A DNA stretch of 64,000 nucleotides from a virus. The translations under genes and the position numbers were made by a program. Below, piece after piece: positions 20,250-34,543 of the stretch. The DNA is taken from the IMG/VR virus record IMGVR_UViG_3300032116_000152, positions 1 to 64,000 of that record, one strand, 5' to 3'. Positions within the stretch are counted from its first letter, which is position 1. Every line of letters starts with the position of its first letter. The notes below the pieces were generated by a model. That model saw only the letters and a program-made list of their open reading frames with translations. It did no database searches and was not told the origin of the DNA.

Positions 20250-21830
20250 TTAGACAGTTGCTAATCCATCGATGAAGATCTTACCGAAGAATTCTGGACG
20301 TACGATCTTCTTCGCGTAGCGGGTCATTACGCCTCTACGTGGTGTGAAGTTGTTTGGATCGTATACCAATGGAGTCATGATAAGTGGGATATATGGTGCG
20401 TAGACTGCACCAGTTTCGAGGAAGTTACTTCCACGGAAGCCCATTAACAATGTGTTTTCGGTCATATATGGGTTCTTGTAGATTGTGTAACGGTTTTGGA
20501 ATGAACCAACCTTTGTTACGCCACCTGCAAATTCCATCTTATCACCGTCTGTTGCTGCCATAAATCCTGGGATTGTTTCCAAGATTGTTGCAACGGTTGG
20601 TGAACATACTGCAAAGTTTGCACCACCACGCATTGTGAGTTGGTGAATCTTGTTTGATACCTTTTGCATCTTTTGACCAAGTGTTTGGAACCAAGTCATT
20701 GATGTCCAAGCTTGACCACTGAGCGTTGCACTTGCTACGAATGCTGAACCGTTCCATACCTTACCAACTTCTGCATTCCAGAATTCTGTTGTGGTTGCGT
20801 TTGCAATCAACATATCAAGAATTTCAAGGTCGATTTCAGTTGAGATGTAGTCACTTAACATTGCTGTTAATTCTGCTTCTGCATCAACTGAGTGGTATGC
20901 GTTCAAGTCTTGTGCAAGTTCTGGTGACCAGACTGCCTTCAACTTACGGGTCTTTGCTACGATTGTTTCTGAACGAAGTTCCAAATCAATTTGTGGAATG
21001 TTCAAGTTTGTTACTGAGTTATCACGATCTTCAAAGTCACCACGGGTGGTGTCTGTTGGTTGCTTGTTGTATTCAACTGCTGACATTGATACCATTGAAC
21101 CAAGAGCTGATGTTCCACTTACGATAAGTGTAACGTTTGTTCCGTCATACTTGGTGAATTCTGGAAGAAGTGCACCACCTGCAACGTTTGTTGTTACGCG
21201 GAATGAACGAACTGCGTTGAAGTCAGCGTTTGAGAAACTTACTGCTGGAACAACGAACTTGAAGAATGATGCAAATGATGATGAGTATGTATCGTTGTAG
21301 TTTACATCACCATAACCAACTGCTGAACCTGAACCAATTGCTGGTGCAAGTGTTAATGTTGCATCATTTACTGAGTATGCGTATTCACCAGCACCGTAGA
21401 AACCACCACGTGGAAGAACACCTGAACCACTGGTTGTACCATAGAGTGAACCACCTGCGGTCTTACCGTTTACTGTGTTTGCATACTTGAAATCCATGAA
21501 GAATACCAAACCTGCTGGTAAGTTCATTGGTTGTACTGATACGAAGTTCTTACTTGCGATTGAACCGAATACCTTACGTACTAATGGAAGTGCGACACCT
21601 GCCCAGTTTTCACCAGCTGAACCTGCACCTGCTGGGTTGGTGGTTGTTGCTTCTGAAAGAAGTTGTGTTGCTTGGTTTTCAAGCATTACTGCCATACCTT
21701 GCTTTTCGTGACCAGTTAAGCCTTCAAGAAGGCCTGACTTTTCCCACTTACCTGCCAATTGGCGGGTTTGTTCAACTACTACGCGGTGTGCTGAACCGGC
21801 TTCGTTGATAAATTCTGATACACCTGACAT
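20250..21830 (-). CDS. 23: Major capsid protein (gp23-like)
   Basis: A 526-residue HK97-fold capsid protein (T4 gp23: 521). Family landmarks are WAGVALPLVRKVFGSIASKNFVSVQPMNLPAGLVFFMDFKY, the central NIPQIDLELRSETIVAKTRKLKAVWSPE, and the C-terminal TRYAKKIVRPEFFGKIFIDGL. The N-terminal 60 residues look like the removable delta domain; LLSE60|A61 fits the (L/I)-x-E cleavage rule of the T4 protease, and T4 gp23 is cut at residue 65. It forms the hexamers of the head shell. It follows the scaffold gene with 20 bases between and is terminated by a strong hairpin. Confidence 0.97.
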   Translation of the reverse strand: MSGVSEFINEAGSAHRVVVEQTRQLAGKWEKSGLLEGLTGHEKQGMAVMLENQATQLLSEATTTNPAGAGSAGENWAGVALPLVRKVFGSIASKNFVSVQPMNLPAGLVFFMDFKYANTVNGKTAGGSLYGTTSGSGVLPRGGFYGAGEYAYSVNDATLTLAPAIGSGSAVGYGDVNYNDTYSSSFASFFKFVVPAVSFSNADFNAVRSFRVTTNVAGGALLPEFTKYDGTNVTLIVSGTSALGSMVSMSAVEYNKQPTDTTRGDFEDRDNSVTNLNIPQIDLELRSETIVAKTRKLKAVWSPELAQDLNAYHSVDAEAELTAMLSDYISTEIDLEILDMLIANATTTEFWNAEVGKVWNGSAFVASATLSGQAWTSMTWFQTLGQKMQKVSNKIHQLTMRGGANFAVCSPTVATILETIPGFMAATDGDKMEFAGGVTKVGSFQNRYTIYKNPYMTENTLLMGFRGSNFLETGAVYAPYIPLIMTPLVYDPNNFTPRRGVMTRYAKKIVRPEFFGKIFIDGLATV

Positions 21831-21850: not shown

Positions 21851-23110
21851 TTATAGAATGCCTGCGAGTTGTTGTAGACGCTTTGCGACTGTATTTTCTT
21901 CTAAAATTTCCTTCTTTGGTGCTGTACTTGGGGTTGGCTTTGATGCCAAACCTTCGGTAACAACCTTACTTGATACGGTGCGTCCCTTTGCATTCTTAGC
22001 AGTTACAGTCATTGCTTCTGCTAATGTTGCATATACCATCTTGACTTCACGTACATTGATTGCTCTGTCGAATGATTCGAGGATTGCAACCTTTTGTTCG
22101 TTGGTCAAACCTTCCTTACGGAAGATCTTGTTGGTATAAAGGAGTTTTGCGTTTAGAAGATTTACTTCGTTAAGCTTGCCTCGTAGGACTTCTACAACCT
22201 TACGATATTCTGCTAGCTCTTTTTGAAGATCTGCCATCTTAGATGCCATTTGATGCTTTTGTTCTGTGTCCTTAGCATCTTGGGCTTCTAATTCACGAAG
22301 GATTGCTTCAAGATCGAGTTCTTCTTCGCCTTCACCTTCACCTGCGCCATAACCCATTTCCATCTTTGGTTCTGCTGGGTTCATTGCGAACTTATGTGGG
22401 TCTGATGCATCTTCTGCACCTTCTGCCTTACCCATAGGATTTACTGCTGGAGCGGATGGCTTGTCATCACCCTTCTTTTGCATTGCATCTGAATGTTTCT
22501 TAGCTGCTTCTGGTGGGGTGCCTGCATCTGCGGTTGGGTCTACAACCTTAGCTGCTTCGTCTGCCTTTTCCTCTTCCTCTTCCTTTTCTTCATCATCATG
22601 CATTTCTTCATTATAACCTTCCTTCATTTCTTCCTTCTCTTCTTCACCTTCATGCTTAGCTTCGTCGAGTTCTTCTTCTTCAGCTTCTGAAAGTGCGTTT
22701 ACATCTCCTTCTAATTCCTTGATTACTTCGTCAAGGTCAAAATCTGATTCTGACCAATCATCATACCAATCGGTTGATGAGTCGGTTTCACCTTCACCGC
22801 CTTGATCAATATCCGATGAGTAGTTTGCTGCATCGGATGGTTCCTTGTTGTCACCAGTTCCGATTGCGGAAGTATCTTCTGGACCACCACCTGTTACGTG
22901 TGTTGCGTCTTGGAATGGTTCTTCCTTTGCCTTTTCCGCACCTTCTGCTGTTTCCATTGCTTCGGCACGTAAGCGCTTTGCAAGCATGGACTTGATTTGG
23001 GGTGTGAAGGTTTCTTCTAATGCAATCTTTGCATTTGCGATAGCCATATCACGGACTGCATCTGCATCTGCAATTGCTTGCTTTAGAAGTTCGTTTGTAA
23101 TTTCTGCCAT
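21851..23110 (-). CDS. 22: Prohead scaffold / core protein (gp22-like)
   Basis: A 419-residue, very acidic protein; the start is the ATG of MAEITNELLKQ, which has a GAGAGG Shine-Dalgarno, rather than a frame opening further upstream. Order of parts: N-terminal helix (about 1-55), a long Glu/Asp/Lys low-complexity tract (about 60-280), a coiled-coil around residues 270-330 (DAKDTEQKHQMASKMADLQKE), and a conserved C-terminal helical domain with NKIFRKEGLTNEQKVAILESFDRA. T4 gp22 is the main core scaffold, degraded by gp21 before packaging. Larger than T4 gp22 (269), mostly because of the acidic tract. Synteny protease-scaffold-capsid supports it. Confidence 0.88.
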   Translation of the reverse strand: MAEITNELLKQAIADADAVRDMAIANAKIALEETFTPQIKSMLAKRLRAEAMETAEGAEKAKEEPFQDATHVTGGGPEDTSAIGTGDNKEPSDAANYSSDIDQGGEGETDSSTDWYDDWSESDFDLDEVIKELEGDVNALSEAEEEELDEAKHEGEEEKEEMKEGYNEEMHDDEEKEEEEEKADEAAKVVDPTADAGTPPEAAKKHSDAMQKKGDDKPSAPAVNPMGKAEGAEDASDPHKFAMNPAEPKMEMGYGAGEGEGEEELDLEAILRELEAQDAKDTEQKHQMASKMADLQKELAEYRKVVEVLRGKLNEVNLLNAKLLYTNKIFRKEGLTNEQKVAILESFDRAINVREVKMVYATLAEAMTVTAKNAKGRTVSSKVVTEGLASKPTPSTAPKKEILEENTVAKRLQQLAGIL

Positions 23111-23239: not shown

Positions 23240-23458
23240 TTACCATTCTGAATTCTTTTTCTTCTCTACCTTCTTTTCTTCACGAATACGGCGACGAAGT
23301 GCTTCTTGTTGCTTTAAGATTTTTTTCTTTGACCTCTTGACATAAAACTCACGGCGCTTCACTTCGTTTACTATTTCTGCCTTTTTAACCATTTTAGAGA
23401 ATTGTCGAAGTGCTCTATCTAAATCACCAAGACTGTCCCCTCTTACTTCTACATACAT
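23240..23458 (-). CDS. rpsU: Ribosomal protein bS21 homologue
   Basis: A 72-residue, highly basic protein that aligns along its length with bacterial bS21: VEVRGDSLGDLDRALRQFSKMVKKAEIVNEVKRREFYVK corresponds to the family's VRENE-(F/L)[26 protein letters not shown] core, followed by the usual lysine/arginine tail. bS21 sits on the 30S platform beside the anti-Shine-Dalgarno end of 16S rRNA and affects initiation. Phage copies are known from large phages and are thought to replace the host protein and bias translation. Here it sits between scaffold and holin-like genes in the head operon, behind the best Shine-Dalgarno in the window. Takeover function is inferred. Confidence 0.9.
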   Translation of the reverse strand: MYVEVRGDSLGDLDRALRQFSKMVKKAEIVNEVKRREFYVKRSKKKILKQQEALRRRIREEKKVEKKKNSEW

Positions 23459-23830: not shown

Positions 23831-24514
23831 TTATTTCATATTTTTAGCGATATAATTCATCGCCGTCTTTCTGACTACCGAATCTGTTCCATAACCCAAT
23901 GCACTCTTAACCAAAATATCACGGCCAGTTTGTGGATTTTTAATACGATGTTTTAATAAATCTTTTAGTCGTGTTTGTTTTGTTGGTGTTCCACCAGCTT
24001 GTTTTGTATCTTTTTCTTGTGCTTGTTGCACGACCAACTTTGTTTGTGGATACTTGTCCATTAATGTTTTGACTGCTTTTACATTCTTTGGTGCATCGTC
24101 AACAAATGCTATTCTGGTATATCCATTTTTAATATGTTTTTCTATGTATCGCGCTTTTTCCATCGGGTCGCTATCACCTAATGCAGCAATTGTGATACCC
24201 GATGTGATACCTTGTGACTTTAAAAATTGCGCAATAGGTTTAGTATGACCACGAGCAGTTAAGACTACTACTTTATCTGCTTTCTTTTGATCAATGACTT
24301 TCTTTAATAGATTGACATATTTTTTTATAGGACGGGGATTTTTCAATTGTTCAAACTCTGAGTAGTCGAACGTATCACCAGGCTGTTTTTCGTATGATAC
24401 GTAATCAGCGGGACTTATATCTTTTTTCTTTCCATCCTTGTCAATAACAATAACCCTAGCGTCTGTATGCACTAGGGTATCGTCAAAATCAGTAATATAT
24501 GCGGTTTTACCCAT
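23831..24514 (-). CDS. HAD-superfamily phosphatase (PseT-phosphatase-like)
   Basis: A 227-residue protein with all HAD motifs: motif I DFDDTL with nucleophile D9 and acid D11, motif II VVLTARGH (about residue 86-93), and motif IV FVDDAPKN (about 137-144), which coordinates magnesium. The order and the TARGH wording resemble the 3'-phosphatase domain of T4 polynucleotide kinase, but no P-loop kinase domain is present. The last ~70 residues form a basic helical extension (TRLKDLLKHRIKNPQTGRD). It might remove phosphates from nucleic-acid ends or nucleotides; substrate is unknown. It lies two bases after the DUF3008-like gene. Confidence 0.8.
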   Translation of the reverse strand: MGKTAYITDFDDTLVHTDARVIVIDKDGKKKDISPADYVSYEKQPGDTFDYSEFEQLKNPRPIKKYVNLLKKVIDQKKADKVVVLTARGHTKPIAQFLKSQGITSGITIAALGDSDPMEKARYIEKHIKNGYTRIAFVDDAPKNVKAVKTLMDKYPQTKLVVQQAQEKDTKQAGGTPTKQTRLKDLLKHRIKNPQTGRDILVKSALGYGTDSVVRKTAMNYIAKNMK

Positions 24515-24998: not shown

Positions 24999-25367
24999 TT
25001 ATCTCTCCACGTACATTTCTGGTCGTAAGTATCTAAACTTACGCATTAATTCACCTGCTTTTGCATTTGCTTCGTTTTCTGTGTTTGACCCATCTTCACC
25101 ATTCAACTCTTGATTACTGGTTCGTTGTTTGTGATGCACCATCTCGTGAGCCAAGGTTCGTAATACATCCGCAATATGACGATTACCTTTTACGATAATA
25201 ATTTCGTCAGTTTGTGGATTATAGGTTCCAAAGGTTAAATTTTCTTTAGAATAATCACTACCCACAAATTTAATATTGGCAGGTAGTGATTGAAGTTGTA
25301 GCTCTTTTGCGACAAACTTTACAAATTCATTTGTGATATTTTCATTTAGTAAAGCTTTAAGTCGCAT
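24999..25367 (-). CDS. Small zinc metallopeptidase with cargo-type N-terminus
   Basis: A 122-residue protein with a gluzincin-type active site: H74-E75-M-V-H78 (HEMVHHKQ) and a downstream ENEANAKAGELMRKF helix that can supply the third zinc ligand. Upstream is a small strand region (IKFVGSDY, LTFGTYN, EIIIVKG) typical of minimal SprT/WLM-like domains. The N-terminus MRLKALLNE|N resembles the (L/I)-x-E prohead-protease signals seen on other small proteins here, raising the possibility that it is packaged in the head and enters the host with DNA. Substrate unknown. It lies between an EF-hand-like membrane protein and the DUF3008-like gene. Confidence 0.75.
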   Translation of the reverse strand: MRLKALLNENITNEFVKFVAKELQLQSLPANIKFVGSDYSKENLTFGTYNPQTDEIIIVKGNRHIADVLRTLAHEMVHHKQRTSNQELNGEDGSNTENEANAKAGELMRKFRYLRPEMYVER

Positions 25368-25373
25368 AGAAAA

Positions 25374-25631
25374 TTATTTGGTCTTTTTCTTTGTTGTTAT
25401 CTTTTTTGCCTTCTTAACAACCTTTTTACTAGTTGCTTCTACTGCCTTAACGGCTGCAACTGCGTCTTTGAGGTCAACCTTACCATCACCGTTGACATCA
25501 ACAACCTTAACTGCAACTGCTTCAACCTTCTTGGTTGCCTTTAACAAAGGTGCTGGGGCTTCCATTACCTTACGATTAACAAAATAAATTACAACTGCTA
25601 ATACGAATACTACTACTAAAAATGTTGTCAT
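25374..25631 (-). CDS. Membrane-anchored protein with EF-hand/dockerin-like loop
   Basis: An 85-residue protein with an N-terminal membrane segment (TTFLVVVFVLAVVIYFV, about 2-18), a short basic turn, a calcium-loop-like DVNGDGKVDLKDAV (about 45-58), and a Lys/Thr-rich tail (KKAKKITTKKKTK). The loop follows the D-x-(D/N)-x-D-G-x-(V/I)-(D/N)-x-x-D pattern of dockerin and EF-hand sites. It sits directly after the prohead protease. Calcium binding and envelope location are inferred. Confidence 0.65.
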   Translation of the reverse strand: MTTFLVVVFVLAVVIYFVNRKVMEAPAPLLKATKKVEAVAVKVVDVNGDGKVDLKDAVAAVKAVEATSKKVVKKAKKITTKKKTK

Positions 25632-25640
25632 AAAAACTCC

Positions 25641-26228
25641 TTACTTTAGTTCACCTAAAAAGTCATATATCAATGTATCAATACGACTATAGGGGGTGAT
25701 AATTTGACCACCCTTGTTTTCGTTGATAAATGCCCCGTGAGTACTTGGATTACTGACAATATCAAAGCAGATAAGTGAGAAGTCATCACCAACTTCTACA
25801 GTATTCTCACCGATTGGTTTGACAGAACCCATACCACGGGATGAAACACCCAATCGGATATTGTTCTTGATGAGTTCACGAACGATATTGCCTGATGGGG
25901 TAGATAAAATTTCGATATTGCCCTTGACATCATCACCTTCGAACCAGAGTTCGGTGACGTTGCAACAGACGTTTTTTAAGTTGACGACAGGACTTTCTGG
26001 ATGGTCGAGTTCACCAAGTGCACGGCGTTGTGATACGAAGTTATTCTTGTATACCATTGCTTCACGTGATAAGATTTCCTTTGGATATACACGACCATTC
26101 TGGTTCTTCATTTCTGCACGTTGAAGTAAAACATCTTTTAACATCAAAGGTTTACTGATGTCTGCTGCTTCTTTTAATAAAGTAGTGTCATAAGAAATGA
26201 CATTATATTCTACGAGTAATGTTTGCAT
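25641..26228 (-). CDS. 21: Prohead maturation protease (gp21-like)
   Basis: A 195-residue serine protease of the herpesvirus-assemblin/gp21 fold (T4 gp21: 212). The catalytic His is in GELDHPESP (H76) and the Ser in LGVSSRGMGSV (S129/S130); NGRVYPKEIL is a further family mark. The start is the ATG of MQTLLVEYNVIS, one base after the stop of the gene upstream (TAATATG); a longer in-frame start would overlap it. It degrades the scaffold and trims capsid and internal proteins after (L/I)-x-E. Many such sites are present in neighbouring proteins. Confidence 0.92.
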   Translation of the reverse strand: MQTLLVEYNVISYDTTLLKEAADISKPLMLKDVLLQRAEMKNQNGRVYPKEILSREAMVYKNNFVSQRRALGELDHPESPVVNLKNVCCNVTELWFEGDDVKGNIEILSTPSGNIVRELIKNNIRLGVSSRGMGSVKPIGENTVEVGDDFSLICFDIVSNPSTHGAFINENKGGQIITPYSRIDTLIYDFLGELK

Positions 26229-26229
26229 A

Positions 26230-26727
26230 TTATTGCCCACGGATTTCACGGATGCGTGTTGCAAGTCCAAGAAGTCTTGATTCCAACTTCAATAATCCTT
26301 GTTGTGTACGCTTCCATAGTTGTTCACTTGCGATACCTGATTCAGTCTTTAAACGACTATTCATTCTAATAACACGTTCAACTTCTTGTAAATTTCTATT
26401 AAGTTGTGAAATAGCTTCTGCAATCTTTCTGTGTGGTGTCTTTGATGTGTCGTTCTTATATTCGTAATACTTGTTTTCGTTTAATTCCTTAGTGACAATT
26501 TCCATTTTATCGGCTGGACGATTTGCTTCTTCTTCACCCTTTGGAGTTAACTTAAATCCTGTGGTTGCGGTGGCAATATGCTTAGAACGTGCTACACTCT
26601 TTGCTTTATTACCACGAAACGAATATGGAGTTAGGTATCCAGGAACATTTGCTGTCGTTGTCATTTCATCAAGTTTTTTCTTGATAATTTGTCGGACGCG
26701 TTCACGAATTTGTTGTGTTTTGTCCAT
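26230..26727 (-). CDS. Putative prohead core protein (gp68-position)
   Basis: A 165-residue, basic, mostly helical protein. It has an N-terminal helix (DKTQQIRERVRQIIKKKLDEM), a conserved-looking TTTANVPGYLTPYSFRG segment, and two C-terminal helices with ISQLNRNLQEVERVIRMNSRLK and LKLESRLLGLATRIREIRG. LDE|M offers a possible protease site. In T4, genes 67 and 68 for prohead core proteins lie between portal and protease, exactly this position; sequence identity to them is not evident to me, so the role is positional inference. Confidence 0.55.
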   Translation of the reverse strand: MDKTQQIRERVRQIIKKKLDEMTTTANVPGYLTPYSFRGNKAKSVARSKHIATATTGFKLTPKGEEEANRPADKMEIVTKELNENKYYEYKNDTSKTPHRKIAEAISQLNRNLQEVERVIRMNSRLKTESGIASEQLWKRTQQGLLKLESRLLGLATRIREIRGQ

Positions 26728-26730
26728 AGA

Positions 26731-27609
26731 TTAACTCTTTAAAGTGTCTAGTGTCTTGGTAATTTCCAAGGCAATTAATAACGCGGTCATGTGATTTTCC
26801 TTGACCATTTGAACTGTCTTTAACTTTTCCAATTGTGAAACAACTTCTGACAACTTGATGGTAGTCACTTTATTATCAATTTTAGCTATCTTCTTTGTTA
26901 TTTCGGCAATCAATTCTTTTGCCAAATCTACGGCATATGCTCGAAGAGCTGCTGAATTGGATACGTTATAGATATATTCACGGAGAAGGTTTTTTTGCTT
27001 ATCACTAAGGTCTACATACTTTTGATTGAACTTTTCCATCAAAATCTTGTAGGTTAATAAACGTAAATCTTCTTCTTGGTTCTTTACGGTTTCAAATAAT
27101 GCAGTTTCCTTCTTAATTTCCTTGTTGACAATCTTACCACTTAAATGTTCAACAATAGTAAACTTAGCTTCAACCATACCTTGAATTTCATTGAAGTCTT
27201 GGATTTCGTTTACTGCACCATCAAATACCTTATATACAGAAGCATAAACTTTGTAAGACGGAATACGGGCATTTAAAAATTCTTTTAAATCGTAGTTGTT
27301 TTTAATTTCACGAATTAACTTGTATTTTTGTGTGTTTAATGCCACTTCATTTAACTTTTTACGTTGTGATATCAATACGTTGATAAGTTCAAATGCCTTA
27401 GTTTCACTGAGTTGTTGTGCATTGAAGAAGGAACGATAAAGTATCAATTCTTTACCAAGTTCTGTCTTAGAATTGAAATACTCTTTCATTAGTTTGACCG
27501 CAGTATCATTACTACGGTTTTCCAATGCGTCTGAGGTTATTTTACGGACTAATAGTTCAAATAGTATGCCCGTATTCCGAATTTTGTTATGCTTGACGTT
27601 TGCTTTCAT
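26731..27609 (-). CDS. Conserved-type helical protein in prohead core position
   Basis: A 292-residue, all-helical, Lys/Glu-rich protein starting at MKANVKHNKIRN (a GGGA Shine-Dalgarno supports this second ATG rather than the one two codons upstream). No enzymatic motif or membrane segment is seen; the ends carry LLVRKITSDALENR and LLIALEITKTLDTLKS. It lies between portal and the other core-position gene, the place of T4 gene 67/68. A core, chaperone or scaffold-associated role is plausible but unproven. Confidence 0.5.
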   Translation of the reverse strand: MKANVKHNKIRNTGILFELLVRKITSDALENRSNDTAVKLMKEYFNSKTELGKELILYRSFFNAQQLSETKAFELINVLISQRKKLNEVALNTQKYKLIREIKNNYDLKEFLNARIPSYKVYASVYKVFDGAVNEIQDFNEIQGMVEAKFTIVEHLSGKIVNKEIKKETALFETVKNQEEDLRLLTYKILMEKFNQKYVDLSDKQKNLLREYIYNVSNSAALRAYAVDLAKELIAEITKKIAKIDNKVTTIKLSEVVSQLEKLKTVQMVKENHMTALLIALEITKTLDTLKS

Positions 27610-27643
27610 AAACATCCCATTTTAGTGACAGTATACCGTCATA

Positions 27644-27652
27644 TATTAAATA
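27644..27652 (-). promoter_or_regulatory. Variant late-promoter-like box TATTTAATA
   Basis: The sense strand reads GTTATATTTAATATATGACGG, about 34 bases upstream of the start at 27609. It keeps the ATTTA core but not the full box, so it is a weaker candidate. Confidence 0.3.
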
Positions 27653-27672
27653 TAACGAATATTAATAAGACT

Positions 27673-29565
27673 TTAGTTTTCTAGGTCCAAAATATTACTT
27701 TCGTCTAATAAAGAACCAGTTGGTTCTTGGTTTTCCATTAAGACTTTCTTACTTGGCTTTTTTAAGTTTGCAACTAATGCCTGAACTTCTTTAGTAAGTG
27801 CCAACGGAGACTTTCTTTTATCATTTCGTTGTTTACTGACCGTCAACGAACCCATATTTTCTTTGTGTCCGAGTGGGTCACGACCACGTGGGTGACTGTC
27901 TTGACCAAATTTCATTCCTGTTTTTGGACGGCCCATCTTAGCTTCTTCTAATTCAGCTTCTTCATCACCGTATCCTTCCAACTCACTTTCCTCACCACCA
28001 TCTTCTAATGAGGCCAAAATACTATCAACATCAGAAACTTGTTGTTCCTCTTCTTCGGTTGGTGGTGCTTCATCTGTTGCTGGTTGTTCACCTGTAGCAC
28101 CTGGTTGTTGTGGTTGTGCTGATTGTTCTAACTGTGCCATACGTTTTACATCTTCTGCAATCTTAGTACGTTCTTCCACGATTTCATCATCAGATAATTC
28201 AAGAATATTATGGTATATCCATTCTTGTGATAACATCTTACTGTTCATAATAGATTCTGCAACCCCAATCTTTTCCTTCCATAAGTTTAACTTTTCTTGT
28301 TCATAGACAATTGATGGGTTGGTCAACGATAATTCAAAGTCTATCAAATCTTCATCAGTAAATCCTTGAACGTATAAGTGGATAATTGCAATCTTGGTGA
28401 GTTCTGACACCATAATACGTTGGATACGTTCTATAGTACGTGCGAAACGTACATCTTGTGCCGCCAATGTTGCCTTACCACTTAAATCTTCTTCGTATCC
28501 TAAGAATGCTTTTGGTACCTTGAATGCTGCCATTAACTTATTACGGAGGTATTCAATATCTTCGATAGCATTAAATTGTAGACCTGGAAGGTTTTGGATG
28601 TCTGTTCCAGAATCTTTACCGCGAACAGGAAGATAAAAATCTTCTGTGATATTTTGCATATTATAACGAAGATTATAATCACCAGTTGCAGGATCTACCA
28701 ATGGTGTTTTCTTCATTCTATCCATAATACGATTCATAAACGTATCGATTTCTGCTGGTGGGATATTACCGATATCAATTAAAATCTTACGCTTATCTGC
28801 CGCTCTCATAATACGATGAATTAACATCGCATCTTCCATCAATTGAAGTTGTTTCCACACACGACGACCACCTTCAACCATTGCCTTACCATATGGAAGG
28901 AAGTTGGTGTCCGAAAGGAGACGGAAGTGAGCTATTTCGTAATTATCGAATTCAGTCTTACCTAACGATAAGAAATCGTTTTCAATCTTGAACTTGACTG
29001 AGAATGGATTACCTGGGTCTTGACCTTCGATACGAATAGTTTCATAGACAGAAAGGGGTAATACATTTACAATTCCAAATTCTGGGTCTATGTCTAGGAA
29101 TAAAAAGAAATCACCATACTTGACCATATTACGAATCCAAGGCCACATATTGAATTCCACATTCAATACATCATAGAATAAGTTATGTAAGATTTCTTGT
29201 ATTTGTGTATTCTTCGAATGAATGGTAAGGAGATTACCAAATTCATCTTTGGTGGTTGATTCGTCAGCATAGATGTCCATCACCGATGAAATAATGGGGT
29301 CATTATCCATCATATCATAATCACGGAACAATTGCAAGCGGGAACCTTGGAACGCAGCCGCTGCTTCATATCGTCCATGGGCAGAACCATATCCACCCGT
29401 CATAGAAGAATAGACGCGGTGGTATCTATCAATACCGCGTCTATTGATAAACGATTGAATGTTATCTGTGTCGGCTACTTTAAGTCTTTTTCCACCAACA
29501 TTACGAACTACCGTATTAGTAGAAAATAATTTCTTTAGTCTGCCAAATATGCTGTTATCAGCCAT
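27673..29565 (-). CDS. 20: Portal vertex protein (gp20-like)
   Basis: A 630-residue portal (T4 gp20: 524). Family landmarks: NDPIISSVMDIYADESTT, FNMWPWIRNMVKYGDFFLFLDI, the stem/clip region with LMEDAMLIHRIMRAADKRKI, YLRNKLMAAFKVPKAFLGYEEDLSGKATLAAQDVRFARTIERIQ, and LNLWKEKIGVAESI. The C-terminal ~130 residues form an acidic and low-complexity extension (VDSILASLEDGGEESELEG, then GRPKTGMKFGQDSHPRGRDP) not in T4. The dodecamer is the DNA entry channel and prohead initiator. Located directly upstream of core, protease, scaffold and capsid genes, as in T4. Confidence 0.95.
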   Translation of the reverse strand: MADNSIFGRLKKLFSTNTVVRNVGGKRLKVADTDNIQSFINRRGIDRYHRVYSSMTGGYGSAHGRYEAAAAFQGSRLQLFRDYDMMDNDPIISSVMDIYADESTTKDEFGNLLTIHSKNTQIQEILHNLFYDVLNVEFNMWPWIRNMVKYGDFFLFLDIDPEFGIVNVLPLSVYETIRIEGQDPGNPFSVKFKIENDFLSLGKTEFDNYEIAHFRLLSDTNFLPYGKAMVEGGRRVWKQLQLMEDAMLIHRIMRAADKRKILIDIGNIPPAEIDTFMNRIMDRMKKTPLVDPATGDYNLRYNMQNITEDFYLPVRGKDSGTDIQNLPGLQFNAIEDIEYLRNKLMAAFKVPKAFLGYEEDLSGKATLAAQDVRFARTIERIQRIMVSELTKIAIIHLYVQGFTDEDLIDFELSLTNPSIVYEQEKLNLWKEKIGVAESIMNSKMLSQEWIYHNILELSDDEIVEERTKIAEDVKRMAQLEQSAQPQQPGATGEQPATDEAPPTEEEEQQVSDVDSILASLEDGGEESELEGYGDEEAELEEAKMGRPKTGMKFGQDSHPRGRDPLGHKENMGSLTVSKQRNDKRKSPLALTKEVQALVANLKKPSKKVLMENQEPTGSLLDESNILDLEN

Positions 29566-29579
29566 AACCCCTCAACTTG

Positions 29580-29930
29580 TTAGTAGATATACAATTCGTC
29601 TATTGACTTGATAACCATTTCAACGATGTGTGTATCTAATCCCTTAGCTGGTTTCTTCAATAGACTATTTAATGCTTCACGTAAATCACGAGCTGGCATT
29701 ACTACGGTTGCCAATTCGGTCATATGCCATTCTGACATTGTGTTGTAGTTGTATGGTATTTCATTGACCTTGGTGATTCCTGCAAGTAATTCTGCGGTTA
29801 GTTTTGCCAACTTTTCTTCTTGAGCTTCTTTAAGGGTTGGAGTTAACTTTTCAAGTAATGCGACCAAACGCATTGAGTTGATGCGGTTTTCCTTACCTGC
29901 TTCTGTGATTAAATCTGTGAGCTTAATCAT
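29580..29930 (-). CDS. Small protein with capsid-targeting-like N-terminus
   Basis: A 116-residue protein starting at MIKLTDLITEAGKENR; GGGAG lies upstream of this ATG, and a longer frame would overlap the neighbour heavily. The first ten residues MIKLTDLITE|A match the shared N-terminal peptide of this gene cluster, ending in I-x-E followed by Ala, the preferred T4 gp21 cleavage context. The remainder is helical (MRLVALLEKLTPTLKEAQEEKLAKLTAELLAGI; C-terminal HIVEMVIKSIDELYIY). No enzymatic motif. It overlaps the upstream gene by 8 bases. A capsid-internal or core protein is my inference. Confidence 0.6.
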   Translation of the reverse strand: MIKLTDLITEAGKENRINSMRLVALLEKLTPTLKEAQEEKLAKLTAELLAGITKVNEIPYNYNTMSEWHMTELATVVMPARDLREALNSLLKKPAKGLDTHIVEMVIKSIDELYIY

Positions 29931-30243
29931 GCTTTTTCTCCCTATCCAATGCTGTTCGCATTTTTTTAACATCTTGTGGTTTTGGTGCTGCGTTGATTGC
30001 CCCACCAGGTCCAACTAGTTGTTCATGCTTCTTTTCTACGTACTTCATTAATAATGAATAATACTTCGGGTTTTCTTTCAAGTGTGCTGCTGCGATTTTT
30101 GCAGTCTTGACCACGTTTCCGTTGGTCACATCTTGGTGTTCCAACTCAACATTCATCCCTAAAAAGAATTCTGTTGGATTAAACTTATAACCCATTTTAT
30201 CTAATATCTTGTCGGATTGTTCCCGTGAGATTTTCTTTTTCAT
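29923..30243 (-). CDS. DUF5661-like protein
   Basis: A 106-residue protein; start chosen at MKKKISREQSDKIL, one base after the upstream stop (TAATATG). The sequence LDKMGYKFNPTEFFLGMNVELEHQD-VTNGN with KTAKIAAAHLKENPKYYSLLMKYVE follows the DUF5661 pattern (F-P-E-F-GM-VELEH, then IAxAHLKE-P-YY). The function of that family is unknown; it is frequent in phages and their environmental relatives. The family name is from memory and should be checked. It sits in the cluster of small head-region proteins. Confidence 0.65.
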   Translation of the reverse strand: MKKKISREQSDKILDKMGYKFNPTEFFLGMNVELEHQDVTNGNVVKTAKIAAAHLKENPKYYSLLMKYVEKKHEQLVGPGGAINAAPKPQDVKKMRTALDREKKHD

Positions 30244-30244
30244 A

Positions 30245-30814
30245 TTACCAGGTACGACATGCCCAGTAACGAGCTTTTGTTCTTGGACCTGGATTATCAC
30301 AATTGTGTCTTGCACGGAACGACTTACGACGAGAAGGGATATTTTTTTTAATCTTCATTGTCTTTTCACCTCGACGTTTTGCCGAAGTTCCACCATGACC
30401 AAAATTAACCTTCTTAATATTTCCACTCTTTGGGTCTTTGACGAACACCTTAAACTTCTTAACATCACCTCTCATAATCTTACCGAGAGCAACCTTACGA
30501 CCACGATATTCTGCTTCACCGAGTTGATTTTCGTGTAATCCTTCAAGAACTTCAATAAGACATTCTGTGCAGTATTCACCATCGTTTATTTCATCTTCGT
30601 GACCTGAAACGTGTGTTTCCGAGCCGAATTGGTCACGTTCATTATCTTGGTCTGGCTTGAAATCACTATCCGATGTAACATCACTTTCTGGACGATGATA
30701 AAGTTCTTCTACTGGAACGCAGTTGGGAACCATCTTACCGTTCTTTTCCTTCATACCAACTTGCTTATATCCTTCCCAACAACCTTCGCAAAGAATATCA
30801 GTTAATCTAATCAT
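30245..30814 (-). CDS. Small basic protein with capsid-targeting-like N-terminus
   Basis: A 189-residue protein starting at MIRLTDILCEGCWEG, with GAGAG just upstream; the longer frame would run into the neighbouring gene. It begins with the cluster's shared peptide ending L-C-E|G. There follow an acidic middle (about 35-75), a CTEC pair, and a basic C-terminal half: KVALGKIMRGDVKKFKVFVKD, a VNFGHGG segment, then PSRRKSFRARHNCDNPGPRTKARYWACRTW. This arginine-rich, Cys-containing tail is common in small proteins of T4-like aquatic phages, with no known function. DNA binding inside the head would suit its charge. Confidence 0.62.
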   Translation of the reverse strand: MIRLTDILCEGCWEGYKQVGMKEKNGKMVPNCVPVEELYHRPESDVTSDSDFKPDQDNERDQFGSETHVSGHEDEINDGEYCTECLIEVLEGLHENQLGEAEYRGRKVALGKIMRGDVKKFKVFVKDPKSGNIKKVNFGHGGTSAKRRGEKTMKIKKNIPSRRKSFRARHNCDNPGPRTKARYWACRTW

Positions 30815-30836
30815 TTTCTCTCTCAAAGTCAAGAGT

Positions 30837-31160
30837 TTATTTCTTTTTAAAGGTAGAAACCATTGTTGGTTTTCCACCTGGATTTCCTGCTTTTCTCTTT
30901 CTAACTACAGCCGAACGTTTTTCACCTTTACTCATCGCTGCTGCGGAACGAGCGGGACGACACTTTGGATATTTTGCACTACCACCCTTTCGCTCTTTCT
31001 TACCAGCCGAAGCACCGCATGGTGGATGTTTTCCTTTTTTATCTTTGCGAGAAATATCTACCCATTTTTGACGAAGCCATTTACCAAGATTACCTTTGGT
31101 TTTATACTTTTCGTCAAGTTCAGTTACAACTTCGTCTAAAAGGTCAGTTAAAAGAATCAT
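30837..31160 (-). CDS. Small basic DUF5872-like protein with capsid-targeting-like N-terminus
   Basis: A 107-residue, strongly basic protein. N-terminus MILLTDLLDE|V is the shared cluster peptide ending L-x-E. The rest has KWLRQKWVDISRKDKKGKHPPCG, KYPKCRPARSAAAMSKGEKRSAVVRKRKAGNPGGKP, a pattern I associate with DUF5872 (KWV-I, P-CG, KCxP, SKxEKxxAVRRKR). The start overlaps the Dps-like gene's stop (ATGA). Lys/Arg content suggests nucleic-acid binding; a capsid-internal role is inferred. Confidence 0.65.
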   Translation of the reverse strand: MILLTDLLDEVVTELDEKYKTKGNLGKWLRQKWVDISRKDKKGKHPPCGASAGKKERKGGSAKYPKCRPARSAAAMSKGEKRSAVVRKRKAGNPGGKPTMVSTFKKK

Positions 31161-31519
31161 TTTAAATATTTTAACTTATAGATAGTGGAATTCACCAACG
31201 CTGAGATTTCATCAACAATATTATTAAGGTCACCATCTTGTGGTAGTCCCTTACGAACACTATCAATATAGGTTGATAATCCAGTAAAATACTTAATTAC
31301 TTCATCGTTTTCAAAGTATTGTTTTTGTGGAGTATAACCACGGATAATTCCATAGCGACCTTGGCAAGTTTCTGCGTAGCTATCAACCAACCCTACAACT
31401 GCATCATAATAATCGTTTAATGCTTTGTGAACGGCATACGATGATGTTTGGAGATGAAAGATATGTGCTTGGTCACGACTATTGAATAGTGTGGATAAAA
31501 ACTTGGCTACAGTTTCCAT
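31157..31519 (-). CDS. Dps/ferritin-like protein with intact ferroxidase motif
   Basis: A 120-residue helical protein. Four residues fall at exact Dps spacing: H19-x11-H31-x14-D46-x3-E50, the same as His51, His63, Asp78 and Glu82 of E. coli Dps, and neighbouring letters also agree (AH ... AVH ... D-x-x-AE). Dps proteins form 12-mers that bind DNA, oxidise iron with peroxide and protect DNA. This one is shorter than usual (150-170), lacking a long basic N-terminal tail; the C-terminal helix is LNNIVDEISALVNSTIYKLKYLK. It may correspond to a phage DUF. It overlaps both neighbours (TAATG, ATGA) in the head cluster. Iron oxidation is predicted, not shown. Confidence 0.65.
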   Translation of the reverse strand: METVAKFLSTLFNSRDQAHIFHLQTSSYAVHKALNDYYDAVVGLVDSYAETCQGRYGIIRGYTPQKQYFENDEVIKYFTGLSTYIDSVRKGLPQDGDLNNIVDEISALVNSTIYKLKYLK

Positions 31520-31989
31520 TACATTGTTCCCGATGGTGCTGGAACTGCACCTGCTGCTCCAGGAACTTCAGCTGTACCATTTTGGTCCTTTTCACTACTA
31601 ATATATTGTGCAGCAGATTCAGTATATTCCTTAGCTAAAGAAATTTTATTTTGTACCCATTCTGGTAAGTTGGTGTCGTCTGCCAACATATCATGCAACA
31701 TTTGTGCATTTCTAATAATGGTTTGTAATTGATTCTTTGCCATGTCACCTTCGTAATCATATTCACCAGAATCAACTGCATCTTTAGGTCCGATTTCTTC
31801 CTTTTTTTCCATTGACTTACCGATAGCATCACGGCGAGCTTTTAAATACTTGTCTGATGAATCTTTATCACCATCATTATCGATATCACCATCTTCTTTA
31901 CCAACGGCGTCAAGAGCTTCTTTTACAGCTCCAACTGGCTTATCACCAATTCCCTTGATACCAGCTACCAATCCCATAAGTCTAATCAT
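31519..31989 (-). CDS. Small helical protein with EF-hand/dockerin-like loop
   Basis: A 156-residue protein starting MIRLMGLVAGIKGIG, similar to the cluster's shared start but lacking an L-x-E site. It has a calcium-loop-like DIDNDGDKDSSDKYLKARRDAIGK (about 35-58), whose flank matches the DKMLKAKRDLYKR following the loop of the neighbouring Cys-rich protein. Then a helical region with LQTIIRNAQMLHDMLADDTNLPEWVQNKISLAKEY, of a type common in T4-like phages, and an Ala/Pro/Gly tail. Function unknown. Confidence 0.6.
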   Translation of the reverse strand: MIRLMGLVAGIKGIGDKPVGAVKEALDAVGKEDGDIDNDGDKDSSDKYLKARRDAIGKSMEKKEEIGPKDAVDSGEYDYEGDMAKNQLQTIIRNAQMLHDMLADDTNLPEWVQNKISLAKEYTESAAQYISSEKDQNGTAEVPGAAGAVPAPSGTM

Positions 31990-32007
31990 ATTACTTCTCC
32001 AAAGTGT

Positions 32008-32493
32008 TTAGAGGGATTTTTGTCCCTTCTTTTGTGCCACCAAATATCTCTTATACAAATCACGTTTTGCTTTTAACATTTTATCTATTAAATTTACTTT
32101 TCCATCATTATTTACATCTGCGTCCTCTTGACCCATTGGATCACGTCGCTTGTGTGGTATATGATATTCTTTCTTAGTTTTTCTCCAACCACCACCCATA
32201 CTCTTATACTTCTTTGCTGCCCAAAGGTTAGCGTATGCTGATGGATATACTTTGAACTTGGCACGTGCGGCTGCTTTTGCTCGTGCCCACTTTTCAGGAC
32301 TGGTTGGTGTGTTCTTTTCTAACAACGTTACAATCTCTTCAGCTTTTTGTAATCGTGGATCTTTAAAATCACTCTCTGTTTCTTTATATCCAAATCCAGG
32401 ATATCCCTCTTCTTGTTCTCCACAACCACAATCAGCTTCGTGGAGACAACCGCAATCCTCAAAAATGTAGGTGTAATATTCTTTATATTCCAT
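32008..32493 (-). CDS. Small Cys-rich basic protein with EF-hand-like loop
   Basis: A 161-residue protein. The N-terminus MEYKEYYTYIFE|D contains I-x-E in the right place for a T4-like targeting peptide, followed by a CxC-x5-CxC cluster (C14, C16, C22, C24) that could bind metal. The centre has SPEKWARAKAAARAKFKVYPSAYAN then WAAKKYKSMGGGWRK, a basic module frequent in phage small proteins. The C-terminus has the loop DVNNDGKVNLID and KMLKAKRDLYKRYL. Function unknown; cluster position suggests a head-associated protein. Confidence 0.6.
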   Translation of the reverse strand: MEYKEYYTYIFEDCGCLHEADCGCGEQEEGYPGFGYKETESDFKDPRLQKAEEIVTLLEKNTPTSPEKWARAKAAARAKFKVYPSAYANLWAAKKYKSMGGGWRKTKKEYHIPHKRRDPMGQEDADVNNDGKVNLIDKMLKAKRDLYKRYLVAQKKGQKSL

Positions 32494-32494
32494 A

Positions 32495-32755
32495 TTACTT
32501 ACCTTTACTTTTCTTACTATCTATTGCCTTGTTGGTTGATGCTGCCCAAAGGTATGATTTCCAATCATCACCGAACTTATCCTTAAAATAACGGATAGAA
32601 CGCTTGTTCTTTAACAACTTCTTGCCAATACCATCACGCTTTTTGACTTGGGACTTATCCATTTTACGTGGTGGTTCACGGCGAGCTACGGTGCGTTCTG
32701 CCAATTCCGCTTCTAATTCTTCACGAATAATTTCTAAAAGTTCATCTTTGGTCAT
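32495..32755 (-). CDS. Small basic protein of the head cluster
   Basis: An 86-residue protein with an acidic helical start (MTKDELLEIIREELEAELAERT, holding several (L/I)-x-E sites) and a basic remainder, including RDGIGKKLLKNKRSIRYFKDKFGDDWKSYLWAASTNKAI. The final KFGDDWKSYLWAA-TNKA resembles the PSAYANLWAAKKY module of the next gene. It starts four bases after the 52-residue gene's stop. No function known. Confidence 0.58.
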   Translation of the reverse strand: MTKDELLEIIREELEAELAERTVARREPPRKMDKSQVKKRDGIGKKLLKNKRSIRYFKDKFGDDWKSYLWAASTNKAIDSKKSKGK

Positions 32756-32758
32756 ATC

Positions 32759-32917
32759 TTATACCGGTTTTGATGTTGTTTTCCCACCACGTTTACGCTT
32801 TCTACGTCCAGCGCAATGTGCTTTTTGGCTGAAACCCTTTGGATTACTACAATTTATGGACTTTTTGTATCTGTTTGTCCATTTTTCTGTCAACAAAATA
32901 TCAACTAATTTAATCAT
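32759..32917 (-). CDS. 52-residue basic protein with capsid-targeting-like N-terminus
   Basis: A short gene of 52 codons plus stop, starting MIKLVDILLTEKWTNRYKK. It has the shared N-terminal peptide ending L-T-E11|K, then a basic domain with SINCSNPKGFSQKAHCAGRR and a Lys/Arg/Gly tail. The CSNPKGFSQKAHC wording recurs in small proteins of other T4-like phages (from memory). GGAT precedes the start, a good promoter-like box lies 26 bases upstream, and the gene fits exactly between the box and the next gene, all of which support its reality. Confidence 0.7.
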   Translation of the reverse strand: MIKLVDILLTEKWTNRYKKSINCSNPKGFSQKAHCAGRRKRKRGGKTTSKPV

Positions 32918-32956: not shown

Positions 32957-34543
32957 TTATCCTAGTAACCACCTAATATCTTCCTTTCCAGTTCCAACTT
33001 GCATCTCGTATGGATTTTGTGCTCTGTCTCTGTTTGTGTAGATGTGACCGACCACATTATACTTGGCCTTGTCTAACGCCATCTTCGTCAGTTCTATACC
33101 TTCCTGACGCAAACGGAGGGCAGTATCACGAACCCACAGACCAATACATAATGCCATTGTCAAGTCATCATTATAACCAGATAATGCTTCTGGTCTACCA
33201 TTCTTCCAAATAAATGTTTCTAATTCAGCACACATTCTTGCTGACCTAATAGTAAAACTATTTTCTAACATATATTCTTTTAATCGTGCAATAACTAACG
33301 GACGAGTACGTTGTGATGTGGTGAATCCAGGAACCATTTGCCGTTCCTCTGCTCTATATCGTCCTGTCATTTGATGTTCTACGTCAACATATTGTAAATC
33401 TTTGGACATATAAAAGAGATTTTTATATCCACGATCAATAATTTGTTGCACAGCGTTCCATCCTATACTACTATTTTCTGGGATGAGTAGTGCGTCATTA
33501 TATTCGGTTGCGATAGATACCAACATATTACCAAACTGCTTAGTTTCTACCTTTCCTCTGTATTCTGCTACTTGGGTAGACGATTCTACATCTATTACGT
33601 GAAATGCCGAATAGTCCTCACCATCTCCACGAGCAACGTCAGCACAGACAATGTATGACCGACCAGGTTGTGCATATTCCCATACCCATAAGTTTCCGTC
33701 AAACCCACCTTTGGTAACTGGTTCTTGAACAAACGATGCTTTGTAAAACTCAATAATTTCTGGCGGAACCACCGTATTACCAGAGAAGATAAATGACGCA
33801 TCGTGTTCTTGTGACGCTTGCATTTCACCCATCAGTTCCGTTTGTCTATCACGCCATGCTTGGTCACGTTCTGGATGAACTCGCCAATCTAATAGAATAG
33901 GATTGAATCCGTTGGTCTTGACCTCCGCTTGTTGCCACATCTTGTGAAAGAAGTTACCCACACCGTTTGGAGTAGAAAGTAATATTGCTTTACCACCCGT
34001 TGATAATGTGGATGATGCTGCCGTCCAGATGATATCTGCGTCATCGATGAATGCAGCTTCATCGAGAATAAGAAGAGACAATGCTTCAGAACGTCCTGCG
34101 TCTGGTGATGATGCCACCGCTTTAATCTGTGAGCCGTTAGAAAATTGGAGTGATAGCTTATTATCCGTGACTACTTCACCACGTAACCATGTTGGGAGGT
34201 TTTGATGCATGAACTTAACTTTGGTAACTAAGTTCTTTGCGGTTTCTTGTTTAGTTGCGATAACAAGGATATTCTTATCTTTATGGAACAACATTAACCA
34301 CAGAGCGTATCCTGCGACCAATGTAGAAATACCAATCTGACGGCCTTTGAGAACGATATTATAATCACTTTTCTCGAAGTCATATAAAGCGTTTTTTTGA
34401 TATTTGTATAAATCAAACAACACCCGACCACGAATCGGGTGTTGAATGTATGAATATTTTGATAAGAAGTAATCTGGCTGTATTGCACACTTCTTATATT
34501 CTTCTTTAATACGTTCACGTAACTGCTGTGCTGTTGCGTTCAT
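32957..34543 (-). CDS. 17: Terminase large subunit (gp17-like)
   Basis: A 528-residue packaging motor (T4 gp17: 610). ATPase domain: a deviant Walker A at residues 66-74 (KGRQIGIST, lacking the usual GK(S/T) lysine), an adenine-region Q just upstream (LYKYQKNALYDF), Walker B LSLLILDEAAF and coupling motif LLSTPNG. Nuclease domain (RNase H fold): CADVARGDGEDYSAF, LIPENSSIGWNA and GYNDDLTMAL supply the acidic residues. It pumps DNA through the portal and cuts concatemers. No small terminase is recognisable in the window. It follows the membrane coiled-coil gene and precedes the cargo cluster. Confidence 0.95.
   Translation of the reverse strand: MNATAQQLRERIKEEYKKCAIQPDYFLSKYSYIQHPIRGRVLFDLYKYQKNALYDFEKSDYNIVLKGRQIGISTLVAGYALWLMLFHKDKNILVIATKQETAKNLVTKVKFMHQNLPTWLRGEVVTDNKLSLQFSNGSQIKAVASSPDAGRSEALSLLILDEAAFIDDADIIWTAASSTLSTGGKAILLSTPNGVGNFFHKMWQQAEVKTNGFNPILLDWRVHPERDQAWRDRQTELMGEMQASQEHDASFIFSGNTVVPPEIIEFYKASFVQEPVTKGGFDGNLWVWEYAQPGRSYIVCADVARGDGEDYSAFHVIDVESSTQVAEYRGKVETKQFGNMLVSIATEYNDALLIPENSSIGWNAVQQIIDRGYKNLFYMSKDLQYVDVEHQMTGRYRAEERQMVPGFTTSQRTRPLVIARLKEYMLENSFTIRSARMCAELETFIWKNGRPEALSGYNDDLTMALCIGLWVRDTALRLRQEGIELTKMALDKAKYNVVGHIYTNRDRAQNPYEMQVGTGKEDIRWLLG

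Follow-up and report, generated by a model that had tools for sequence, protein, structure and literature searches.

A shared leader on five small phage proteins

The window analysed here is the whole stretch of 64,000 nucleotides at positions 1 to 64,000 of the IMG/VR virus record IMGVR_UViG_3300032116_000152, and covers most of that record (68,367 bases). On its minus strand it encodes five small proteins that begin with nearly the same peptide, a leader that we also call the tag. Three of them carry the pattern MI(K/R/L)L-x-D-(L/I)-(L/I)-x-E, and 9- or 11-residue variants head the other two. Judged by sequence comparison, this leader is very probably a capsid-targeting sequence of the phage T4 type in a leucine-rich wording, with a gp21-type cut at its end, that marks proteins as cargo of the phage head. 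A previous reading of the window from its sequence only had inferred such a tag, and the interpretation is supported by the near-exclusive N-terminal occurrence of the leader, the many bodies behind it (at least 60 families), its invariant glutamate, its T4 register, the occurrence of the same bodies under T4's literal tag and the closeness of tagged genes to gp21. It is best read as the head-packaging strategy of T4, used by another group of phages for a longer list of cargo proteins. Capsid-targeting tags are a known principle; what is new is the leucine wording on an unexpectedly wide range of proteins, tied to T4 by register and by shared bodies. No description of the leucine wording in environmental phages was found in the literature searched, whose coverage was partial.

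PMC9503650 describes gene neighbourhood and fusion to head proteins as the usual grounds on which head-packaged effectors are inferred, and the T-even ip genes are described as having been found through their leader (PMC12373910). If a ten-residue address could be read directly from sequence, leader-based searching would extend to uncultured phages, and the question of which proteins are injected would become a search. Should a single capsid-import code of this kind run through the T4 superfamily (see below), the first ten residues would predict the injected effectors of such phages.

Tagged proteins of the window

All five leaders on which the sequence-only reading was built are indeed present (Table 1). 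Of the 54 genes called in the window, 4 match a strict N-terminal regular expression; when the N-terminal residues were shuffled 300 times, 0.25 genes matched on average and never more than 2. The four positives are the tags other than that of the 52 amino acid (aa) protein, whose gene was missed by the gene caller because an open reading frame (ORF) on the opposite strand masks it; its tag and body both recur in related loci. The strict DNA pattern occurs once in the window, and 100 shuffles did not produce it at all. The mechanically delimited ORFs are longer at 32917, 30814 and 29930, where they extend to an upstream GTG or TTG, and the ATG was chosen as the start. The codons for the tag residues differ among the five tags, which rules out a recent duplication of one 5' end as their origin.

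The five proteins range from 52 to 189 aa. Their bodies had been called unrelated, and this holds in that comparing the five with one another gives no match at E <= 1; it needs qualifying in that the 161-aa and 116-aa bodies have a 14-residue match in common (E 0.04) and that, in related loci, several families are joined by common short modules at 50% coverage. That several are very basic is true of two, with net charges of +13 and +20, but not of the other three (+6, -2 and 0). The 161-aa Cys-rich protein was said to have a site equivalent to those of the five; it does have a tag-like leader, MEYKEYYTYIFE↓D, but this belongs to a second wording, closer to MKTYQEFIAE of T4. For the 52-aa protein neither PHROG (E <= 0.01) nor Pfam (E <= 0.05) gives a match, and the 116-aa protein likewise matches nothing in either database. 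Pfam matches of the metallopeptidase and the 107-aa protein are below threshold (the latter to PF19197, E 0.006), and the other three proteins have none. The 107-aa protein has an untagged relative in pelagiphage HTVC023P.

We note that 30837-31160 and 32008-32493, which lie close together, weakly match different parts of the DUF5872 model, and that pelagiphage HTVC023P has similar modules in two adjacent genes, both untagged. The gene at 31519..31989 is a possible, weak further member; the parallel is the leader of T4 IPI, where Glu at position 10 is also absent.

Conservation of the leader in related loci

Portal homology, independently of the tag, was used to collect 80 viral loci. In these loci and the window, a loose tag expression matches 231 of 1,431 called genes. 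By family, a loose expression matches all 70 members of the 116-aa family, 41 of 46 DUF5872-like, 30 of 60 in the 189-aa family and 8 of 56 DUF5661 proteins; untagged members exist in the DUF5661 and DUF5872-like families. Many of the remaining 189-aa relatives begin MENLNE↓A or MEQMTE↓A immediately ahead of the CWEGYK module. The 116-aa family, gathered through its position next to the portal gene, was aligned over the whole protein (48 distinct sequences). The glutamate is kept in 48 of 48, L4 in 45, D6 in 43, Leu or Ile at residue 7 in 47 and Ile or Leu at residue 8 in 46, and residue 9, just before the glutamate, varies freely. A fixed glutamate behind a free residue is, as read from this alignment, the signature of a putative (L/I)-x-E protease site. 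Homologues of the 161-aa protein begin MKYTDFFSE, MKYRDFFPE or MINYKEFFTE, and of 36 matches to the corresponding pattern, M-K-Y-x-(D/E)-F-F-x-E, 30 are N-terminal; the pattern reaches 4 families only.

The leader in viral contigs

When viral contigs were searched with a DNA pattern encoding MIK-(L/F)-x-D-(L/F)-(I/L/M)-x-E, at least 120 stretches matched; the counts that follow, for this wording and for that of T4, are among the matches listed. ORF N-termini account for 110 of 128 matches, with 15 internal and 4 in short ORFs (the categories may overlap), whereas a scrambled pattern of the same residues in another order, scanned completely, is N-terminal in 2 of 28 (Fisher p 1e-15, with matches treated as independent). 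The 110 N-terminal matches, taken up to 30 codons from the upstream stop and with at least 40 aa, contain 99 distinct 40-residue starts; 113 tagged proteins, taken up to 60 codons from that stop, fall into at least 60 body families, 42 of them with a single member. Pfam was run on 59 of the 60 family representatives, L203, which contains X, having been left out of alignment A1.

In seven loci (L099, L110, L113, L128, L182, L183, L186) MIKLTDL(I/L)NE lies inside an ORF, ~190-220 codons from the upstream stop, and could be an internal start, an embedded cut site or a fused cargo. Four of these internal-tag proteins (L110, L182, L186, L099) begin MKTLQEQ(Y/F)N and by eye resemble the immuto gene before gp21. 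A few of the matches in cellular genomes are phage-like by eye; L267, L334 and L340 are in contigs filed as bacterial, perhaps as phage sequence within bins.

Relationship to the T4 capsid-targeting sequence and shell propeptides

T4 IPII and IPIII begin MKTYQEFIAE↓A, and the T4 vertex protein gp24 begins MAKINELLRE↓S. The tag has the T4 register, with hydrophobic residues at 4, 7 and 8 and Glu at 10; in terms of position only, this holds in three of the five window tags, one of the others being a residue longer and one shorter. In IPIII the first ten residues are reported to be enough for packaging, residues 4 and 7 to act in targeting and residues 8 and 10 in processing, and Asp at position 10 to block processing with targeting kept (PMC9026906). 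The gp24 protein is reported to lose its first ten residues to the prohead protease, and the structure of gp21 to indicate activation through loss of nine N-terminal residues (PMC9958956).

Like the IPII/IPIII sequence, the leader described here is a ten-residue N-terminal peptide common to otherwise unrelated small proteins, is acidic at residue 6 as well as hydrophobic at 4, 7 and 8 with Glu at 10, and is found in a phage that encodes a gp21-type protease. It differs in having Leu/Ile in place of the Tyr/Phe wording and far more body families, and in that the window genes adjoin gp17-gp23, whereas the T4 ip genes are located elsewhere. The propeptide of gp24 is leucine-worded and ten residues long and its removal is published (PMC9958956), but gp24 is a shell protein, whereas the peptide here heads unrelated, apparently non-shell proteins. 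The tag had been called differently worded from that of T4; this is right for IPII/IPIII but not for T4 as a whole, in which the leucine wording is already present on gp24.

The literal T4 leader, MK-x-Y-x-E-F-I-x-E, is N-terminal in 119 of 134 matches, on at least 67 body families, in a scan without its own scrambled control. Several bodies occur under both wordings (E-values are for a local set of 119 proteins). L163 matches L482 (E 6e-22) and L454 (4e-9), L117 matches L504 (an HAD-type body, E 9e-20), L174 matches L499 (E 9e-16) and L121 matches L525 (E 2e-7), with homology beginning right behind both leaders in the last pair. The CWEGYKQVGMK...VPNCVP module of the window's 189-aa protein is also found under T4-worded tags, in L524 (E 1e-10) and L480 (E 2e-10), and a related CWPGYKKKG module, a weaker match (E 0.006), stands right behind MKTYQEFISE↓A. 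By strict clustering, 4 of 122 combined families contain both wordings, a natural exchange.

In close relatives the N-terminus of the capsid protein, MSGVSEFINE↓A or MSDVNSLINE↓A, resembles the tag in one wording or the other. Such an N-terminus is present in most aligned relatives, with the Glu missing in Mel-JY01, and the T4 gp23 site FLTE aligns with (L/I/V)-x-E in 17 of 17 relatives aligned. From this we infer that the cargo mimics the shell protein's own propeptide. We consider it rather probable, with clearly less assurance than the capsid-targeting interpretation itself, that a single capsid-import code runs through the T4 superfamily, in interchangeable leucine-worded, Tyr/Phe-worded and mixed dialects that mimic shell propeptides and send more than 100 unrelated families to the prohead for delivery to the host.

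Some further leaders were seen. In L036 and L038 the N-terminal capsid peptide ends in Asp rather than Glu (EFLDD, QFLDD). Two genes beside the terminase of immuto (L083 17631-18931) begin MADNFNLRSFLTENKLT and MENFDLKKFLVENKLT, with leaders of the form F(N/D)L(R/K)(S/K)FL(T/V)E↓NKLT that are perhaps another wording. The window's own HAD-type protein (23831-24514; phrog_415, polynucleotide kinase, E 3.8e-7) carries no tag but is a relative (E 1e-10); it is related to L504, which has a T4-worded leader, and L117, with the leucine wording, is also related to L504.

Position of tagged genes relative to gp21

The gp21-type gene of the window matches the profile of the head maturation protease (Table 1), and all tagged window genes lie within ~7 kb of it; the sequence-only reading had correctly placed them near the protease gene. 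Position was compared in six records, namely the window record (G000) and five large gp21-bearing relatives chosen for holding a pattern match; these five are related to the window and to immuto, and their gp20 is 54-73% identical to that of immuto. Tagged genes are closer to gp21 than other genes are (rank test, combined p 4e-7). The numbers within 20 kb of gp21 are 5 of 6 in G131, 6 of 11 in G035, 5 of 7 in G099, 4 of 4 in G049, 2 of 3 in G087 and 3 of 3 in G000 (combined p 5e-8, several genes being just inside the limit); p is 9e-8 when Mel-JY01 and immuto are added. The G000 count recognises three of the five window tags, the expression excluding the 9-residue tag and the gene caller having missed the 52-aa gene. 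Over whole records, regular-expression matches number 7 genes in G131 against a shuffle mean of 1.2 (maximum 8), 9 against 1.8 (7) in G102, 12 against 1.3 (5) in G035 and 3 against 1.2 (5) in G087. Some tagged genes are far from the head genes, for example two ~50 kb away in G099. L115 (11520-12552) has two consecutive tagged genes ~50 kb from gp21, of which the second weakly matches Tox-ART-HYD1.

As a proof, the joint presence of tag and protease is too weak in fragments; many of the listed tag records are short. The phrog_207 search covered the loci of 116 of the 120 listed stretches (L004, L011, L016 and L052 were left out). The capsid profile was found in none of 11 gp21-less tag records of at least 40 kb and in 12 of 12 gp21-bearing records used as a positive control. 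Since the capsid profile is also missing, many of these gp21-less records are probably fragments without a head block. There are 12 such records in all, of which L166 (an internal match) was left out; the match in L192 is cut by the locus end. PF03420 found nothing in the 11 records, nor in the controls, and so carries no information here.

Cargo proteins

The 122-aa protein has a HExxH motif in a predicted zincin-like fold, and only this fold class is claimed because many zincins tie in the structure comparison. HExVHHKQ is invariant in 12 of 12 aligned sequences. The AlphaFold model has a mean confidence (pLDDT, predicted local distance difference test) of 86.8, with 61 for the first ten residues and 77-96 for residues 11-120; the leader is drawn as the start of the first helix, and except for the final two residues no other block of the model is less certain. 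The best structural match has Z 8.7 and a root mean square deviation of 3.3 over 102 residues, with many zincins within ~1 Z unit. Foldseek gave no match at E <= 0.001, the best (0.03-0.13) being entries for protease-dependent DNA-protein crosslink (DPC) repair, PprI and selecase.

Pfam domains found in the 59 representatives include Zeta toxin/AAA, ART-PolyVal, Tox-ART-HYD1, NUDIX, GNAT, MPTase-PolyVal, phage lysozyme, DUF5872 and DUF6321; none of these names applies to more than two members, and several of the matches fall short of the curated cut-off. Only 29 models match any representative at E <= 0.01, ten of them a single P-loop protein, so most bodies remain unnamed. Both wordings together head at least 122 body families, and those flagged include ADP-ribosyltransferase-like, zincin-like, Zeta-like kinase, Nudix, SAM-lyase and 2H phosphoesterase members. 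PADLOC gave three weak matches in the tagged set and no clear defence family. Two T4-worded proteins are possible counter-defence cargo, a 2H phosphoesterase with a sub-threshold Acb1 match (L488 9512-10042) and a protein of the SAM-lyase family (L471 11564-12109).

Zincins, ADP-ribosyltransferases, GNATs and Nudix proteins are among the activities predicted to be phage-injected (PMC5512222, PMC9503650). T4 Ip2 and Ip3 are reported to inhibit type IV restriction enzymes, and Ip1-3 are described as having no homology in common except the leader (PMC12373910). T4 Alt is a head-packaged ADP-ribosyltransferase whose N-terminal site, ITE-6, is cut by gp21 (PMC5694885); ADP-ribosyltransferase-like bodies are tagged here too (Alt was compared by description), but Alt also has a C-terminal propeptide. 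The polyvalent proteins of phages and conjugative elements have a similar presumed injected repertoire (zincin MPTase, ART-PolyVal, GNAT, Nudix), with many domains in one chain, whereas here small proteins have one address tag each; none of the five window proteins is a large chain with two or more disparate domains. Most likely the cargo proteins act early, to modify the host and to counter its defences. The "early host-takeover kit" of the sequence-only reading would fit the cargo names found; in the window itself four of the five proteins have no assigned function.

Mechanism and alternative explanations

We infer that tagged proteins are packaged, cleaved and injected, as follows. M-x-x-L-x-D-(L/I)-(L/I)-x-E would fold as a short amphipathic helix whose residues 4, 7 and 8, all hydrophobic, dock on the prohead scaffold core in the way that a shell-protein propeptide would. 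The receptor is likely the acidic protein encoded at 21851-23110, to judge from the position and composition of its gene. The activated gp21-type protease would then cut after (L/I)-x-E and leave the mature cargo free inside the head, from which it would later be ejected along with the DNA. Tagged proteins could in this way reach the next host cell with the phage genome. No published virion proteomics of the cultured relatives (Mel-JY01, immuto) was found in the literature.

Several points weigh against this interpretation. The N-terminality contrast depends on one scrambled pattern, and the T4-wording scan had none; 15 of the 128 listed viral matches are internal, and in cellular genomes (257 Gb) 26 of 108 matches are N-terminal, several of them in housekeeping genes. 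The pattern itself fixes residues 4, 6, 7, 8 and 10, so the set collected with it has the register built in and is no proof of it; the register therefore rests on the window and the portal loci. The 20-kb limit was set after the gene positions of two records had been viewed, and the combined p depends on it (0.5 at 10 kb, 9e-5 at 15, 5e-8 at 20, 3e-6 at 30); this leaves our estimate unchanged because the limit-free rank test agrees. Closeness within 20 kb is not significant in G000 or G087, nor is it in Mel-JY01 (1 of 4) or immuto (2 of 3) alone. The strict expression matches 6 genes in each of these two phages, with shuffle means of 1.3 and 1.4 and maxima of 6 and 8. Finally, phrog_207 is present in 46 of 115 listed tag records and 5 of 28 scramble records, a weak difference (p 0.03) that is not significant among records of at least 40 kb (19 of 31 listed against 4 of 12, p 0.17).

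Tagged proteins might instead be components of the prohead core, cut and mostly expelled at maturation like T4 gp67 and gp68 rather than injected. The location of the window genes is compatible with this, since all five belong to the head block, four of them flanked by gp17 and gp20 and the fifth placed just after gp21, and T4 core genes 67 and 68 sit between gp20 and gp21; the internal tags of seven loci lie in a longer ORF, whose end in L099 and L110 is ~10 bases or less from the gp21-type match. Nevertheless, the sheer number of bodies and the enzyme-like nature of some (zincin, ADP-ribosyltransferase, P-loop kinase, Nudix) suit cargo better than core parts, and some tagged genes, such as two of G099, are far from the head genes, so that we think a core role unlikely. 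A quite different possibility, which we rate as improbable, is that the peptide docks proteins on some other viral machine (replisome, transcription complex, tail hub or phage compartment), its Glu being simply part of the helix. Short amphipathic helices are common among targeting peptides, co-occurrence of tag and gp21 is weak in contig fragments, and cleavage is deduced. Against this possibility speak a fixed Glu 10 behind a free residue 9, homologous bodies that alternate with the proven capsid tag of T4, the closeness of tagged genes to gp21 and a capsid protein that itself begins with such a peptide in most aligned relatives. Chance or composition (AT-rich gene starts, common amphipathic N-terminal helices) could be argued from the N-terminal matches in cellular genomes, partly in housekeeping genes, and from the Mel-JY01 and immuto counts, which are within reach of shuffles. 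The window count beyond every shuffle, the scrambled pattern, the use of different codons for the same residues and the conservation in a whole-length alignment make this explanation exceedingly improbable; shuffles and scrambled pattern rule it out for the set as a whole, and single members may be chance.

Features of the window

According to profile searches, the minus strand of the window carries a head block like that of T4 (Table 1). Among named phages, the best relatives of the window portal are those of Microcystis phage Mel-JY01, at 49% identity, and of Flavobacterium phage immuto, at 45%.

Table 1. Leaders, tagged proteins and head genes of the window (arrow, predicted cut)
Feature	Position	Strand	Basis or remarks
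Tag MIKLVDILLTE (11 residues) of 52-aa protein	32885..32917	-	related loci: homologues MIKLMDLIPE, MKRLTDLIPE
Tagged 52-aa very basic protein, MIKLVDILLTE↓K, net charge +13, body with SINCSNPKGFSQKAHC	32759-32917	-	sequence
Tag MILLTDLLDE	31131..31160	-	sequence
Tagged 107-aa basic protein, MILLTDLLDE↓V, net charge +20	30837-31160	-	phrog_23735 E 1e-17; weak DUF5872 match
Tag MIRLTDILCE	30785..30814	-	sequence
Tagged 189-aa protein, MIRLTDILCE↓G, module CWEGYKQVGMK...VPNCVP right after tag	30245-30814	-	phrog_7595, phrog_9737
Tag MIKLTDLITE	29901..29930	-	exact pattern match; Glu kept in 48/48 distinct family sequences
Tagged 116-aa protein, MIKLTDLITE↓A	29580-29930	-	family n=70 in 80 portal loci and window
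Tag MRLKALLNE (9 residues)	25341..25367	-	sequence
Tagged 122-aa zincin-like metallopeptidase, MRLKALLNE↓N, HEMVHHKQ	24999-25367	-	phrog_87 E 8.5e-6; zincin-like structure matches
Second-wording tag MEYKEYYTYIFE (then ↓D) of 161-aa Cys-rich protein 32008-32493	32458..32493	-	homologues MKYTDFFSE, MKYRDFFPE
Possible further member, MIRLMGLV..., no Glu at 10, candidate later site AVKE↓A	31519..31989	-	weak
Large terminase gp17	32957-34543	-	phrog_2 E 4.3e-50
Portal gp20	27673-29565	-	phrog_213 E 2.1e-62
Prohead protease, gp21 type, own N-terminus MQTLLVE↓Y	25641-26228	-	phrog_207 E 4.6e-48; compare T4 gp21 MNEPQLLIE
Major capsid protein gp23	20250-21830	-	profile search
Feature within capsid gene	21651..21830	-	phrog_138 E 3.9e-70; alignment of 18 sequences
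Acidic protein before capsid gene, presumed scaffold (gp22 place)	21851-23110	-	position and composition

A homologue of ribosomal protein S21 of the phage type (phrog_21469, 23240-23458) adjoins the presumed scaffold gene. The two large neighbours 125-3481 and 3595-8103 share an identical end, LVVPVGTNQYAT, and cluster with 8103-13931 as one family, possibly of tail-fibre paralogues.

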